Source: a virus
Reading direction: 5' to 3' (one strand)
Virus record (IMG/VR): IMGVR_UViG_3300021373_001684
Span: 1 to 25,027 of that record
DNA: 25,027 nucleotides
Below are positions 1-24,665 of the stretch, piece by piece. The translations under genes and the position numbers were made by a program. Numbering within the stretch: the stretch's first letter is position 1; each line of letters opens with the position of its first letter. The notes below the pieces were generated by a model. It made no database searches and was not told where the DNA came from. It was given only the letters and a program-made list of their open reading frames with translations.

Positions 1-197
1 GTTAATCGTCTGTAAATCGAAACAATATACATACCCCTATCTATATGTGTTGATGCGTACCTATATAATTTATTGTATGTATTAAGGTGGTCTATTCTCT
101 ATATATATTAAGGTAATACCAAACGTTTGAAATAAGGCTATTTTTAATTGATTTGTGAAAGTTTAAGTAGGATTGTATACTAAGATATAACAAGCAT

Positions 198-221
198 AAA
201 AAAAAGCCCTTAGATAGGCTT
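198..221 (-). terminator. Second (distal) terminator of the left operon
   Basis: Read on the minus strand, a 5-bp stem AAGCC/GGCTT with an 8-base loop is followed by a run of eight T (the plus-strand A run at 198-205). It lies about 90 bases beyond a better terminator and may act as a back-up. The short stem makes it the weaker of the two. Confidence 0.45.
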
Positions 222-312
222 ATTTTAGCTAAATAGTGAAACAATATAAAAATAAAGTATATTATAATATATTGTAAATAGTTATATTATTATATTCATT
301 ACAATAAGGCAC

Positions 313-8898: not shown

Positions 8899-9120
8899 AT
8901 GACGAAAAAGAAACTCACACCGAAGTACAATGACAACAAGTCTATTAGAGCTAGAATAGACAAGTTGTTAGAAAAGAACACATCTAATGTAGCCAATTCC
9001 GGTACAGGAAGTAAATTAGATGTAGGAGATGATAGTAAGGTCAAAGAGGCTTGGCAAGAAATACAAGCTAAGATAAAGGAGATAGACCCTGTGTTTTACG
9101 ATATAATTAAGGAGAGATGA
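8899..9120 (+). CDS. Hypothetical small protein (73 aa)
   Basis: I do not recognise this protein. The N-terminal half is basic (MTKKKLTPKYNDNKSIRARIDKLLEKN). A Ser/Gly/Asn-rich flexible stretch follows (NVANSGTGSKLDVGDDS), and then a helix VKEAWQEIQAKIKEIDPVFYDIIKER. The layout, basic tail plus linker plus helix, could suit a DNA-binding or adaptor peptide. It is the first gene behind the second TATATTTG promoter and overlaps the methyltransferase start by four bases (ATGA), so it may regulate or accompany that enzyme. No helix-turn-helix is clear. Confidence 0.65.
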   Translation: MTKKKLTPKYNDNKSIRARIDKLLEKNTSNVANSGTGSKLDVGDDSKVKEAWQEIQAKIKEIDPVFYDIIKER

Positions 9121-9821
9121 AGATAACCAACGAAGATAATATGGAGTTAATGGCTAGGTACGAGGACAATCATTTTGATTTAGCTATTGTAGACCCCCCT
9201 TATGGGATTGGTGCAAGTAAAGTCAGTAAAAAAAAATACAAAATAAAACAATCAAACGGAAAAATAAGTAATACACCAAATAATAACTATAAAAATAAAG
9301 ATTGGGATAATGAAACACCAAAAAAAAATTATTTTGATGAGTTATTCAGGGTTAGTAGAAATCAAATAATTTGGGGAGTAAATTATTATGATTATAGTTT
9401 GTTAGGTGGCAGAATAATATGGGATAAATTAAACGATAATTGCGACCAATACGATTGTGAAATTGCCTATAATAGTTTTAATAAAAGAACTGATATAATA
9501 AGGTATAAGTGGATTGGTATGTTTCAAGGTAAACAAATTAGTAAAGACTATGGAAAAGCTAACAGACAACAAGGCAATAAATCACTTAACGAAAAACGAA
9601 TACATCCAACTCAAAAACCTGTTAAATTATATGAGTGGCTATTAATGAACTACGCCAAAGAGGGCGATAAAATACTCGATACACATTTAGGTAGTGGGAG
9701 TATTGCAATAGCTTGTCATAATTTAGGCTATGATTTGACTGCTTGTGAAATAGATAAAGATATTTATCTTTCTGCAATGAAACGTACTAAACAGCATCAA
9801 GCACAATTAAGATTAATATGA
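9117..9821 (+). CDS. DNA methyltransferase, beta-order N6-adenine type (234 aa)
   Basis: This is an S-adenosylmethionine-dependent DNA methyltransferase (N6_N4_Mtase, PF01555-like). The catalytic motif IV is DPPYGIG at 26-32, and DPPY points to N6-adenine methylation. IHPTQKPVKLYEWLL (162-176) is the motif X region, and motif I is DTHLGSGSIAIAC (188-200), followed by the acidic cofactor-binding LTACEID at about 207-213. Motif IV before motif I gives the beta-group order. The target-recognition part in between (about 35-160) is short and Asn/Lys-rich, so the enzyme is compact. No restriction endonuclease sits beside it, so it is probably an orphan enzyme that protects phage DNA from host restriction or alters host expression. 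Its target site cannot be read from sequence. Confidence 0.9.
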   Translation: MKITNEDNMELMARYEDNHFDLAIVDPPYGIGASKVSKKKYKIKQSNGKISNTPNNNYKNKDWDNETPKKNYFDELFRVSRNQIIWGVNYYDYSLLGGRIIWDKLNDNCDQYDCEIAYNSFNKRTDIIRYKWIGMFQGKQISKDYGKANRQQGNKSLNEKRIHPTQKPVKLYEWLLMNYAKEGDKILDTHLGSGSIAIACHNLGYDLTACEIDKDIYLSAMKRTKQHQAQLRLI

Positions 9822-11963: not shown

Positions 11964-13301
11964 TTAATCTTCTATAATTTGTACACTATCTATTGCTAAG
12001 TCACCTACAAATCCTGTTGCGTTTTGACTAACAAAGTAAATATAGTAATCTGTTGAATTGTCTCTGTAGTTGTTTAGACTAATAGTTTTTTGTTGGTATG
12101 GGCTATATTGTGAGCTAAAATTACTCCAACTTTCATAGGCAGCCAATTCGGTTGCGTTAAGATGATTAGATGTTGCTGCATCATCTATATAAACGTATAA
12201 ATCTCCTATTTGACTTCCGTAAGCGTGTACCCAAAATTTTAATGTTAAATCATTAGATGTGTTATTCATTTGTGGTATAACAGGTGTTCTCGCAACAAAG
12301 CAATAAGAGTTTCTACCACTAGAAACTTCTGTATATAAATATTTTGTGTTGTATTTAAAATATCCTGAGCTACCATCTGCAACACCATCTGATGGACCCG
12401 TACCTGCCGATGGCGTACTTAAGTTATCGCAATTCCATCCCTTTGTAGTTTTATTAGATGTTCTTCCCCAATATACGCCATTTGTAGCTAAAGCACCATT
12501 TACCCAACCATTTTGAGGACTCCAATTACCCGACGGACTTGTATTTGTTGTTTCTCCCTCAAATTTATAAATCAAGTTTATCAATGGTAAATAATTACCC
12601 GGAAAACTTCTATGTAAAACACTAGTTCTTAAAACATTTGTTATACTATATATATCTCCGGGAGCAACACCATCAACTCTTTTGTTATAACCAGGTGAAG
12701 TATATGTAATCCTTAATCCCATATCACCTCTACCCGATATAATACCTACAGGTGTATCTACTTGTGCGTTAGTTAAGATAACAAACCCAAAATCTTGTTG
12801 GTCGCTAGGATTCCAAGTTAAACCAAATAGCTCAGTAGAAGAACCTGCTAAAATATCTGTACCATAAGAGTTGTTTTTATAATATCTGTTAGAACCTGTC
12901 AAAGTAAGCTCCATAGAATCTGAACTAAGAGAGCCACCGGCAGGGGTTGCCAAAAAAGCTGCTTCTGCATAACTAGACCCATTGTAAACATACATTCTAT
13001 ATGTTAGTGATTCACTAAAACCTGTAGAACCTGCATTACCAAATCTAGCATTATGTGAACTACTAGCATTGGCTACTAACTCAACCCCTGTAATTGTAGC
13101 ACCGGTAGGTATTTCTGTGTTGAAACAACCCTTCCACAAGTTCCCTCTATTACCTGCAGTAGAGCCTGATGCCACACATACATTAGTTCCGCTTGAAAGC
13201 ATCCGTTCAGGATAAGTCCAAGAAACATAATTGTTACCATCGCCTAATGCAGTACCTAAAGTATTATAAGTAGTTGGTCCTTGTACGTTTGTAGTTGGCA
13301 T
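11964..13301 (-). CDS. Tail fibre / receptor-binding protein with C-terminal MAM-like domain (445 aa)
   Basis: This is a probable host-recognition protein exposed at the tail. Residues 1-200 form a strand-rich, Gly/Ser/Thr-rich region (LWKGCFNTEIPTGATITGVELV, TYRMYVYNGSSY, DFGFVIL, MGLRITYTSPG), probably a jelly-roll. A short linker (KRVDGVAPGDIYSITNVLR) leads to about 245-445. That part carries MAM hallmarks: WNCDN, TPSAGTGPSDG (297-306), LTLKFWVHAYGSQIGDLYVYI (352-372) and a closing GFVGDLAIDSVQI (430-442). MAM domains are adhesive beta-sandwiches best known from animal receptors and also found in bacterial surface proteins. It follows the other fibre genes with tiny gaps. I place it as a fibre or tip adhesin; the exact position on the virion is inferred. 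Confidence 0.75.
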   Translation of the reverse strand: MPTTNVQGPTTYNTLGTALGDGNNYVSWTYPERMLSSGTNVCVASGSTAGNRGNLWKGCFNTEIPTGATITGVELVANASSSHNARFGNAGSTGFSESLTYRMYVYNGSSYAEAAFLATPAGGSLSSDSMELTLTGSNRYYKNNSYGTDILAGSSTELFGLTWNPSDQQDFGFVILTNAQVDTPVGIISGRGDMGLRITYTSPGYNKRVDGVAPGDIYSITNVLRTSVLHRSFPGNYLPLINLIYKFEGETTNTSPSGNWSPQNGWVNGALATNGVYWGRTSNKTTKGWNCDNLSTPSAGTGPSDGVADGSSGYFKYNTKYLYTEVSSGRNSYCFVARTPVIPQMNNTSNDLTLKFWVHAYGSQIGDLYVYIDDAATSNHLNATELAAYESWSNFSSQYSPYQQKTISLNNYRDNSTDYYIYFVSQNATGFVGDLAIDSVQIIED

Positions 13302-20573: not shown

Positions 20574-20987
20574 TTATGCTACTACTTGAGTCAAGTCCTC
20601 TGTTCCTGTACAAGTGATAGAGTACGTTGTATTGTCCTCAAATCCTGCATCAGCAGATAAACTTGTGATGTAAGCCTGACCTGTGTAAGTATCACCACTA
20701 TCGCCAACTGTAAAAACTACTGTTACTTCAGGGTCGGTTGCTACATTTGTCATAGTTGTAAAAGCATCTGAGAAAATAGTTTTACTTGTACCATCTGTTA
20801 AATCTACAAAACCATCTCCTGATACTTCCCAAGAAATAATACCTGCTAAGTTTTTAGTAAAACCTCCTGATTGCTTAGAAGAAGCATCTCTTAGTTCTCT
20901 AGAAATTGATAGACTACAAGAAGTAGCGTGAGAAATAACTTGCCCACCTACACTTAATGTTACGTCTGTTGCATTTTGAACTGCCAT
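20574..20987 (-). CDS. Major tail (tube) protein, TP901-1 type (137 aa)
   Basis: The protein reads MAVQNATDVTLSVGGQVISHATSCSLSISRELRD in two parts, then SGGFTKNLAGIISWEVSGDGFVD, TIFSDAFTTMTN and VTVVFTVGDSGDTYTGQAYI. It closes with LSADAGFEDNTTYSITCTGTEDL. The beta-sandwich pattern and motif order fit the TP901-1-like major tail protein family (Phage_tail_2, PF06199), which stacks in rings to form the tail tube. Length is normal for that family. It sits between the tail completion protein and the chaperones, as expected, and should be one of the most abundant virion proteins after the capsid protein. Confidence 0.88.
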   Translation of the reverse strand: MAVQNATDVTLSVGGQVISHATSCSLSISRELRDASSKQSGGFTKNLAGIISWEVSGDGFVDLTDGTSKTIFSDAFTTMTNVATDPEVTVVFTVGDSGDTYTGQAYITSLSADAGFEDNTTYSITCTGTEDLTQVVA

Positions 20988-20993
20988 TTTATT

Positions 20994-21851
20994 TTAGTTT
21001 TTAATTATTAAACAATCGAAATTAATGTTTTTGTAGAACTTTTCAGCGTTCTTATAATAGTCATCGTCTAGGTCTATAAACCTAAATTTAGCAGTATAAG
21101 ATTGCCCATCCTCGGTATAAGTAACCGAATACAAGTCCAAAGCCTCTACAATTGCTTTAGCTTGATTATATGTTGTTCCGTAAGAGTCAGCAAAACAAGC
21201 TAACCTAACAGATAGATTACAAGAATTTAAAGAAGCACCTTTAGACATAAAGTTAGTTACATTTGTTATTTCGTAAGTAACTGCAGGGTAATCTACTTCT
21301 TGTGGTATAATAACAGGAAATACTTTTTTATCTCCAATCTCTTTAACTGATGCAAAACTAAGCACAAATTGTCTGTTAGTACCCGGCTCGTCTTGGTCTA
21401 ACTCAAAATTCACATAACGAATATTTCCATATTGACCTGATTTGAACGTAAAACTATAGGTTATATATTCTTCTTGAGCTGTAGTTGGCAGCCATTCACC
21501 TTGTAAGACTTCGCTTCCATAAGTAGTAGTACCAACATTAACTCTAATTGGATAGAATGGAGCCGAATATTTTATTGTTACAATATATTCTTTATTTGCA
21601 TCTGCAACAAAACCGGATGATACAATTGGGTTTCCTACATCTAAAGGGTGAATACCACCCTGTACAAATAGATTTCCCTCTGATGTTATTGATACTTCAG
21701 TAGGTGGGTCTACCGAATTCCAACTATATGTATTAGATAAAGGAAATGTTGCATTAAACAATTCTTGCGATTTGCCTGAATCGTTAGCTACATTAAATGC
21801 TGCGTTTCCGTTTAACCTATCTACTATTTTTTTACCTATTACTGCAAACAT
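20994..21851 (-). CDS. Tail completion/terminator protein split by a carbohydrate-binding-like domain (285 aa)
   Basis: Residues 1-25 (MFAVIGKKIVDRLNGNAAFN) and 174-285 together give a DUF3168/tail completion protein: VFPVIIPQEVDYPAVTYEIT, NLSVRLACFADSYGTTYNQAKAIVEAL, then FIDLDDDYYKNAEKFYKNINFDCLI. This family caps the tail at the head-tail joint and normally has about 120-140 residues. Here about 145 extra residues (26-172) sit between helix 1 and the first strand. The insert starts LFNATFPLSNTYSWNSVD, includes NLFVQGGIHPL, EYIVTIKYSA and IRYVNFELDQDEPG, and ends FVLSFASVKEIG, the layout of a CBM_4_9-type jelly-roll. Ring position predicts an outward display of sugar-binding modules at the tail neck. 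The insertion is clean and in frame. Confidence 0.82.
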   Translation of the reverse strand: MFAVIGKKIVDRLNGNAAFNVANDSGKSQELFNATFPLSNTYSWNSVDPPTEVSITSEGNLFVQGGIHPLDVGNPIVSSGFVADANKEYIVTIKYSAPFYPIRVNVGTTTYGSEVLQGEWLPTTAQEEYITYSFTFKSGQYGNIRYVNFELDQDEPGTNRQFVLSFASVKEIGDKKVFPVIIPQEVDYPAVTYEITNVTNFMSKGASLNSCNLSVRLACFADSYGTTYNQAKAIVEALDLYSVTYTEDGQSYTAKFRFIDLDDDYYKNAEKFYKNINFDCLIIKN

Positions 21852-22373
21852 CTAAAATCCTGCTTTTCTTATCATTTTTTCTAATAACCTACCTAAGTCC
21901 TTTTGAGCTTTATTTGATACTTGTTCGCCCATCCTTTCAGCAGTTGCCCTAAAAACATCAGGGTATTGAATAAACTTTTTACCCCTATAATAGCCCTCAA
22001 TTTGCATAGCAGCTAAATTTCTACTAGCTCCTTTTCTCCAATAGTGAGGGTTTACTTTTTTCGCCATTGGACCAACGAATAAGCCCGGTTCTCTAGATTT
22101 TCTTGCAGTAGTAATCCCTATAGTGTCTGCGGTCCTTTTACCAAAAACATAACTCTTAGATGTAGGGTTATATCTTCTACCCGGATTTTTACTTGCAAAC
22201 TGCTTTTTATAAGCCTTTTGCATACCTCTAGCAAGTTGATTAGCTGCAGGTCTCAAAGACTTGTTTATTTCAGTCCTTGATTTTCTAGCAGTTAAGCCTA
22301 AAGACATAAGCCCTTTTTTAACCTCATTTATACCCTTGACCTCTATGCGAAAATTTTGCTTCTTGCTTGACAT
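21852..22373 (-). CDS. Head-tail joining protein, HK97 gp10 family (173 aa)
   Basis: A basic protein with an N-terminal FRIEVKGINEVKKGLMSL and helix INKSLRPAANQLARGMQKAYKKQF. A loop-rich middle (GRRYNPTSKSYVFGKRTADTIGI, LFVGPMAKKVNPHYWRKG) leads to a C-terminal helical pair (FRATAERMGEQVSNKAQKDLGRLLEKM). The order is that of HK97 gp10-like proteins (PF04883), which act in the neck between head closure and tail completion proteins. Length is typical. Its start overlaps the stop of the head closure gene by one base (TAATG), and one gene later comes the tail completion protein, the order seen in HK97-like phages. Confidence 0.85.
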   Translation of the reverse strand: MSSKKQNFRIEVKGINEVKKGLMSLGLTARKSRTEINKSLRPAANQLARGMQKAYKKQFASKNPGRRYNPTSKSYVFGKRTADTIGITTARKSREPGLFVGPMAKKVNPHYWRKGASRNLAAMQIEGYYRGKKFIQYPDVFRATAERMGEQVSNKAQKDLGRLLEKMIRKAGF

Positions 22374-22747
22374 TATACTACGTTTTGTGTAGGCAAGTCC
22401 TGTTTAACAAAAATTTCTATATATTCTTTTCTAGGGTCAATAACAAAACCTACAATATCGTAAACATCTCCGGTTGATACTTCTTCAACTATCCAATTTG
22501 AGGCAATTCTTTTTGTTGCACTTGAATATCTTACAGTATAAACAAATCTACCATAAGATTGGAGTTGCTCACCTTCAAACTTTTCCTCTATATCTCTTAG
22601 GGTTTTTACATTTTTGTTTGCCCAAACAGTAGTCTGAGTAACATAACTCTTTTCAGAACCTCCAAAAGAATCAATAGTAGTTGCTATAGACTTAATCTTT
22701 ATTCTTTGATTAAAGTCCCCTGCTTTTATTTTGCTAATAAATGCCAT
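22373..22747 (-). CDS. Head closure protein, SPP1 gp16 / Phage_H_T_join family (124 aa)
   Basis: The protein reads AGDFNQRIKIKSIATTIDSFGG, then TVWANKNVKTLRDIEEKF, GRFVYTVRYSSATKRIAS and VYDIVGFVIDPRKEYIEIFVK. The opening (D-F-N-x-R-I-x-I), the WANxxxLxxxE stretch and the closing Y-x-I-x-G-x-x-x-D-x-R-x-x-Y-I-E-I strand match head-tail adaptor/stopper proteins (PF05521). These close the portal after DNA packaging and receive the tail. Length is normal. It lies between the connector and gp10-like genes, the usual order. It is beta-rich and small, with no odd features. Confidence 0.88.
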   Translation of the reverse strand: MAFISKIKAGDFNQRIKIKSIATTIDSFGGSEKSYVTQTTVWANKNVKTLRDIEEKFEGEQLQSYGRFVYTVRYSSATKRIASNWIVEEVSTGDVYDIVGFVIDPRKEYIEIFVKQDLPTQNVV

Positions 22748-23429: not shown

Positions 23430-24665
23430 TTATGATTGGATGCTCTTTTGGAAGATAGAATCTGCTTGAGCTACTACACCATCTACAAGACCGGTAGCTA
23501 CCATTCTAGCACCACCTTTACCTGCAAGAGTGTAAGGGTCAAACAAAATATCCAATCCACCGAATACTCCTAAGTGTACTTTAGAGAAGTCACCACAAAG
23601 AACTTTGTCTTTACCTGCAGTACCATCAGAACCTAAAGCAGAAGTTACAAAGTAAGGTGTGTTGTTGATTACTTTCTCAGCTAAGTTTAAGTAACCTGCA
23701 GTGAAGTCAGCACCTGCTGCAGTAGCGATTGCACTCCAAGCATCAGGGTTCATAATGTAAGCAATTCTAGCGTCTAAACCTGCTCCTGCTCCAACTACTT
23801 CAGCTTCAAGACCTGCTAATACTCCTATAGAAGCTGCAGTTGTACCTGTTCCTCCTGCTGCTGCAACAATAGATTCAGGTGCAGAAGTAACATTTCCTTC
23901 AGCCAATAAAGCTGCTTCCATCTTAGCCATCATAGAAGCTGCGATGTTTTTTCTCAAAGCACCTTCAAGACCTGCGTTTTGTACTAAAGACTCAGGACTC
24001 ATTTCTACTAGAGAAATAACCTTTTTAGGTTGTAGAGTTTTTTGTGCGATAGAACCTGATGCAGGAAGGTTTGTTGCTGCGGTTGCCTCTGCTGCCCAAG
24101 AAGAAGTGATACCTTGTACGATAGGGAATTTTCTATCTGCACTCAATCCTGAGTAGAAGTTAGAACCTGCACCTACCAATACAGAAGCTGCCTGTAGTTG
24201 GTCTATAAAGCTAGATACTTCAGTACCTGCAGAGTTAGCAGTAGTTACTGCACGTTGCTCTGAACCATTCAATACAGAGTAAGGAATAGCGATACCTTTG
24301 AATTGTTGGTGTGGGTTCTCGTTACGAGCTTCTTGGTCCATCTCAGCAACAAGACCTGTTACACGACCTGTGTAAGCTGCTTTAGCTGCATCTACAAAAG
24401 AAAATTCTCTGATTTCTTTAGACTCTTTTACATTCTGAGTTCCAAAAGAAACAGGTGCAGAAGCGATTTCAGCGTTAAGTTTTTCTTGTCTCTCAACCAA
24501 TTCAATGTTTTTCTTTAGAGAGTCGATTTTATCCATTTTTGTATCGTAAGATACTTGCTCGTCATCATTGAAGTTACGAGACTCAGTTTTACAAGTTTCA
24601 AGCATAGTGTTTGCTTCTTCAATCAAACCTGCTCTTTCTTGACGTAATTCTACGGAATTTTTCAT
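23430..24665 (-). CDS. Major capsid protein, HK97 fold (411 aa)
   Basis: A Phage_capsid (PF05065) protein that builds the icosahedral head. The first ~105 residues form a coiled-coil delta/scaffold domain (LRQERAGLIEEANTMLE, DDEQVSYDTKMDKIDSLKKNIE), which the prohead protease should remove. The mature part carries family features: GIAIPYSVL, SFIDQLQAASVLVGAGSNF, FPIVQGI, ATAATNLPASGSIAQKTLQP, KKVISLVEMSPESL, MAKMEAALLAEGN, then YIMNPDAW, YLNLAEKVINNTPYFVTSAL, VHLGVFGGLDILFDPYT. Length is normal. The DNA here is somewhat richer in optimised, repetitive codons (many GCA/GCT/CCT), as expected for a highly expressed gene. It follows the protease by four bases and is closed by a stable terminator. 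Confidence 0.95.
   Translation of the reverse strand: MKNSVELRQERAGLIEEANTMLETCKTESRNFNDDEQVSYDTKMDKIDSLKKNIELVERQEKLNAEIASAPVSFGTQNVKESKEIREFSFVDAAKAAYTGRVTGLVAEMDQEARNENPHQQFKGIAIPYSVLNGSEQRAVTTANSAGTEVSSFIDQLQAASVLVGAGSNFYSGLSADRKFPIVQGITSSWAAEATAATNLPASGSIAQKTLQPKKVISLVEMSPESLVQNAGLEGALRKNIAASMMAKMEAALLAEGNVTSAPESIVAAAGGTGTTAASIGVLAGLEAEVVGAGAGLDARIAYIMNPDAWSAIATAAGADFTAGYLNLAEKVINNTPYFVTSALGSDGTAGKDKVLCGDFSKVHLGVFGGLDILFDPYTLAGKGGARMVATGLVDGVVAQADSIFQKSIQS

Follow-up and report, generated by a model that had tools for sequence, protein, structure and literature searches.

The gene order at the head-tail joint and the interrupted terminator

The window, i.e. the whole stretch of 25,027 nucleotides analysed here, is a virus record from IMG/VR and may be a fragment of a longer genome. 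The genes and features that concern us all lie on the minus strand:

20574..20987, minus strand: tail tube protein gene (Phage_tail_2, 8.1e-11; PHROG 1407 major tail protein, 8e-24)
20994..21851, minus strand: predicted tail terminator gene with inserted domain, 285 aa (ORF; PHROG 347; IMG/VR relatives)
20997..21335, minus strand: terminator core, second part, residues 173-285 (identity among relatives; match to 9lbn_K)
21336..21782, minus strand: inserted domain, residues 24-172, predicted CBM4-type jelly-roll (alignment with insert-less relatives; match to 4bj0_A; swapping)
21783..21851, minus strand: terminator core, first part, residues 1-23, helices 1 and 2 (alignment with insert-less relatives; model)
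21852..22373, minus strand: neck-region protein gene, directly upstream of the terminator (position between head closure and terminator)
22373..22747, minus strand: head closure (stopper) gene (Phage_HCP, 1.3e-14; PHROG 25 head closure, 1.1e-13)
23430..24665, minus strand: major capsid protein (MCP) gene (Phage_capsid, 5.5e-21)

The terminator ORF starts with ATG and is followed downstream by the tail tube gene, two short ORFs and the tape-measure gene; a tail tube ring is expected beneath the terminator ring. The neck-region gene has no Pfam or PHROG family match over threshold. An N6_N4 DNA methylase gene (9117-9821; 1.9e-17) runs in the opposite direction to the structural genes.

The 285-aa protein matches PHROG 347, 'tail terminator', with an E value of 1.1e-5, which improves to 2.8e-6 if residues 28-173 are cut out, and the same excision lowers the E value for Pfam PF11367 (Tail_completion_gp17) from 0.037 to 0.0048. 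The corresponding PF11367 scores, 14.6 bits for the whole protein and 17.4 bits without the insert, are both below the curated cut-off of 24.5, as are those of insert-less relatives (14.7 and 16.9 bits). The profile evidence for a terminator is modest, and the window protein is not filed in PF11367. Structural comparison points in the same direction: AlphaFold2, run on a 34-row alignment of the window protein and the proteins of the related loci, returned a two-domain model (pLDDT 82, pTM 0.76), which was compared with solved structures by VIA-align on Foldseek's top 1000. The split core of this model matches 9lbn_K, part of the phiXacJX1 head-to-tail connector, over 112 of 117 residues in the range 4..285 (Z 13.2, rmsd 2.9). 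The core modelled for the relative L006 matches the solved terminators of RcGTA (6tba_4A, Z 15.6), phage Mu, T5 (p142, Z 12.0), the SaPI1 neck and lambda (tail cap, Z 11.5); 8bcu and 8iyd are likewise among the matches. Published work, on RcGTA, describes the siphophage-type terminator as hexameric and located between the stopper and the tail tube, with the N-terminal helix 1 facing the stopper and helix 2 packed on helix 3 (PMC7296036). The protein of the window would form a hexameric ring between the head-closure ring and the tail tube.

The inserted domain and its predicted fold

Searches of IMG/VR yielded 30 and then 142 relatives of the terminator, and 80 of these 142 loci (labelled L) were kept by a profile search. 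Uninterrupted terminators among them have 136-138 aa and for the most part share 71-76% identity with the protein of the window (76% in L009, L015 and L016; 58% in L028, the most distant insert-less relative). They display the empty site: aligned to them, the insert comprises residues 24-172, between N23 and G173-DKKVFPVIIPQ, and departs right after helix 2 of the model, ahead of the first core strand. The initial annotation, which had proposed that a terminator is split by an inserted domain from about residue 25 to residue 172, is thereby borne out, with limits correct to within two residues. Because natural insert-less relatives show the empty site, the insertion is established independently of the weak terminator profiles. 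Including the window, the N-terminus is complete in 59 distinct relatives, and 25 of these carry an insert, invariably at this one site, a proportion that is not a population frequency since the profile search favours close relatives. Among the insert-bearing relatives the second core part is 72-100% identical. As 25 distinct relatives possess an insert at exactly this position, neither chance nor faulty assembly explains it; an assembly chimera was dismissed on the same grounds, the identical junction being seen in many contigs. An intein or intron was likewise rejected, given that the insert is in frame, lacks splice-junction residues (N23/D24, I172/G173), has a CBM jelly-roll fold and has in-frame homologues. 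Taken together, profiles, alignments and models describe the 285-aa protein as the tail terminator of a siphophage, into which some 149 residues have been inserted.

Outside this group of loci, a scan of genome contigs found no relative of the window terminator, and a phage genome collection contained no full-length match, only weak C-terminal ones (Caulobacter phages, E ~0.006) and one at E 0.3. A 281-aa viral protein in BFVD, A0A516M9I3, aligns with nearly all of the model (E 3.6e-10, TM 0.41) and might be another insert-bearing terminator.

In the AlphaFold2 model strands run all through residues 26-172, and the helices and strands of the terminator occupy the remainder. Residues 29-172 superimpose on CBM4-2 (4bj0_A) with Z 15.5 and rmsd 2.2 over 137 aligned residues, and the insert also matches the porphyran-binding CBM 8xmz (Z 14.5) and many CBM4/16/22/29/61 modules; its best 50 structure matches are mostly CBMs or CBM-like domains, with Z > 12. 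The model of L006, whose insert is only ~20% identical to that of the window, has a lower confidence (pLDDT 77), but its insert again matches CBMs (8xmz, Z 13.7), so that very different inserts share a common predicted fold. At the level of sequence profiles, the insert found at the same site in L003 exceeds the Pfam cut-off for CBM_4_9 (PF02018; 29.7 against 25.9 bits), the insert of the window matches neither a Pfam family (it remains under those 25.9 bits) nor a PHROG family, and a profile of the insert alignment retrieved from solved structures only sub-threshold matches, mostly CBMs or polysaccharide enzymes. In the models, then, residues 24-172 are an independently folded CBM4-type jelly-roll. 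The suggestion of a CBM-like jelly-roll in the initial annotation has thus held, and the fold search on the full protein recovered the terminator fold and the jelly-roll as separate units. A CBM4-like fold need not mean sugar binding, and the ligand is not readable from the fold, because the CBMs that it resembles most differ widely in specificity (xylan, xyloglucan, cellulose, galactan).

Exchange of the insert and selection acting on it

Inserts on near-identical cores can be as little as 16-35% identical. In the pair L002/L006 the C-terminal flanks are 99% identical and the inserts 21%, in L008/L013 the respective values are 100% and 31%, and the reverse case is found in L006/L008, with flanks of 75% and inserts of 88% identity. 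L046 combines an L037-like insert (85%) with an L004-like core (95%). On the DNA level L002 and L006 are 97-100% identical just outside the insert and mostly 32-55% within it, and identity changes sharply at the two ends of the insert. Discordance in both directions is seen in synonymous divergence, a measure that selection on the protein should leave undistorted: dS of insert and core is 1.41 and 0.06 in L033/L042 and 1.02 and 0.06 in L032/L033, the insert being more diverged, but 0.27 and 1.32 in L006/L008, where the core is. This discordance implies that inserts have been transferred between lineages by recombination. The insertion site is, as far as can be read from these alignments, a swap locus at which a cassette is exchanged by recombination. 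The insert may have been gained once or several times: the carriers form three supported clades in the core tree (three changes by parsimony), but the AU test does not reject their union in one clade (p 0.295).

The MCP of L002 and L006 is 39% identical, in contrast to 99-100% in portal, protease and head closure, and that of L004 and L011 is 41% identical against 100% in the terminator core; the major capsid protein (window 23430-24665 and its homologues) looks to have been swapped as well. The neck-region gene may belong to some of the exchanged segments: its versions in L059 (974-1465) and L069 (5451-5996) are 35% identical, as opposed to 100% for the head closure of the same pair.

It is conceivable that the domain is a promiscuous passenger, moved by recombination and tolerated in a permissive loop with little function. 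Its presence in some relatives and absence from others fits this idea, as do two pairs of very close relatives with insert dN/dS values of 0.96 and 1.46. In the other 12 of 14 pairs, however, insert dN/dS is 0.18-0.75, the inserts are in frame and free of stops (even though the search itself favours intact reading frames), and very different inserts have kept the same predicted fold. We therefore regard a passenger as highly improbable; the dN/dS values indicate that the insert is maintained under looser constraint than the core, and the inserts appear to be mostly under purifying selection.

Alternatively, the domain could be a structural brace that stiffens the head-tail joint, or seals it, by packing on the capsid, the neck protein or the tail tube. 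It is located at this joint, some terminators have additional domains, for instance sheath-binding ones (PMC11784142), and the Ig-like domain on the adaptor of the marine siphophage R4C has been interpreted as stabilising rather than adhesive (PMC10276861), which counts at the same time against an adhesive role here. On the other hand, L004 and L006 are 94-97% identical in capsid, neck, head closure and terminator core (MCP 97%, neck 95%, head closure 94%), yet only 34% in their inserts (16% in the multiple alignment, as identities from pairwise alignment are the higher ones), whereas L004 and L011 have inserts of 93% identity on virions with capsids of 41%. Insert-less relatives, mostly 71-76% identical, evidently manage without the domain. 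The insert thus varies apart from capsid and neck proteins, which favours an external ligand, and a brace seems to us unlikely.

Similar modules are also found elsewhere in these genomes. In many relatives the normal tail tube gene is followed by an enlarged paralogue of ~250-590 aa with extra domains inserted (e.g. L012, L016, L019, L026, L043, L046, L071, L088 and L089); the window has the short tail tube gene only. In several insert-less relatives the insert profile matches the C-terminus of this second copy (E 6e-7 to 3e-5), for example in L084 (6853-8562). That locus hinted at a mutual exclusion between terminator insert and CBM-bearing tail-tube paralogue, which was rejected because L001, L043 and L046 carry the insert together with an enlarged second tube gene. 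A fibre-like protein of 555 aa (L123, 2324-3988; also L124 and L125) contains a module of 27% identity beside a Laminin_G_3 domain, and the terminator inserts could plausibly derive from proteins of this kind. Judging from their genes, these uncultured phages seem to equip several components of the virion with such modules. A second copy of the window insert alone was not found in IMG/VR with exact 8-residue patterns, a search of limited sensitivity. Near the tail end of the operon the window encodes a 445-aa protein (11964-13301) whose marginal match to the MAM domain (26.8 bits; cut-off 26.4) may point to a second module for adhesion.

A possible glycan-binding ring at the neck

The reading that we prefer, and consider rather probable, is that six CBM-fold modules ring the neck and provide a weak, exchangeable adhesion to glycans. 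The number follows from the expected hexamer, with one jelly-roll per terminator copy. The six jelly-rolls would project outward from the ring and bind, weakly and multivalently, a glycan of the host capsule or EPS, LPS, or a particle polysaccharide; this grip would keep the virion close to the cell during the receptor search of the tail tip and aid capture. Recombination in the conserved flanks would exchange the domain and leave the ring intact, so that ligand specificity could change with assembly undisturbed. The hexamer, glycan binding, outward display at the neck and the benefit for adsorption are what we infer. Many relatives lack the insert, which speaks against glycan adhesion, and the neck-proximal position limits the reach to the cell. 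A more far-reaching proposal, in which the terminator ring is a receptor-recognition site fed by recombination and a swap of the internal cassette alters which cells or surfaces the neck grips, without involvement of the tail tip, is rather doubtful.

As a variant of glycan adhesion, the ligand could be an environmental or third-party polysaccharide (algal, particle-borne or mucus-like) that retains virions near their hosts, in place of a host receptor. Porphyran- and alginate-related CBMs (8xmz, AlyQ 7d29, 8zqf) are among the weak matches by profile and fold, and the neck position would then require no contact with the cell envelope. Given that the best fold matches span many CBM specificities, and that the neck and tail CBMs of the 936 lactococcal phages bind host cells (PMC6669499), such a ligand seems to us rather doubtful.

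Tail terminators are usually seen as conserved parts of assembly, but here the ring is the docking site of a CBM-fold cassette that can be exchanged and whose evolution is separate from that of ring, capsid and neck, which suggests a fast-evolving, glycan-grasping collar. If the modules do bind glycans, the neck is a second site of adhesion, missed by adsorption models that consider tail tips and fibres alone. The natural empty and swapped alleles constitute a ready-made test set for the role of neck-borne sugar-binding modules.

In the literature searched, which is incomplete in coverage, no tail terminator is described as containing a CBM. Lambda gpU, SPP1 gp17, T5 p142 and RcGTA g8 share the core fold, and their genes likewise precede the tail tube gene, but as described they lack a jelly-roll at the corresponding position, after helix 2 and before the first strand of the core; the extra domain of larger terminators is sheath-binding or a repeat of the terminator fold (PMC11784142, PMC13324602). 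The CBM4-, CBM22- and CBM16-type modules of glycoside hydrolases (Pfam CBM_4_9) resemble residues 29-172 in predicted fold (Z 13-15.5 over ~125-138 residues), whereas the insert is only ~10-17% identical to them and resides outside any enzyme, in a virion ring protein. Promiscuous Ig-like domains, including that of the R4C adaptor, are similarly accessory beta-sandwiches on a conserved head-tail protein; the insert differs in belonging to the CBM jelly-roll family, in being internal at a single fixed site and in being swapped as a cassette. The closest parallel are the 936 siphophages, in which CBM-fold modules on neck and tail proteins (neck passage structure, TpeX extension of the major tail protein, evolved Dit) are diverse between close relatives, as they are here, and whose neck passage proteins are a hotspot of domain exchange (PMC10684548). 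Host-cell binding has been shown for the 936 modules, and the group of the window is known from sequences and predicted structures. The 936 neck modules are carried by a dedicated fibre-like neck passage protein or a C-terminal extension, in contrast to a location inside the terminator ring protein. CBM-decorated siphophage virions are therefore already known; what is new here is the terminator as the carrier of the CBM-fold module, together with its clear exchange as a cassette.
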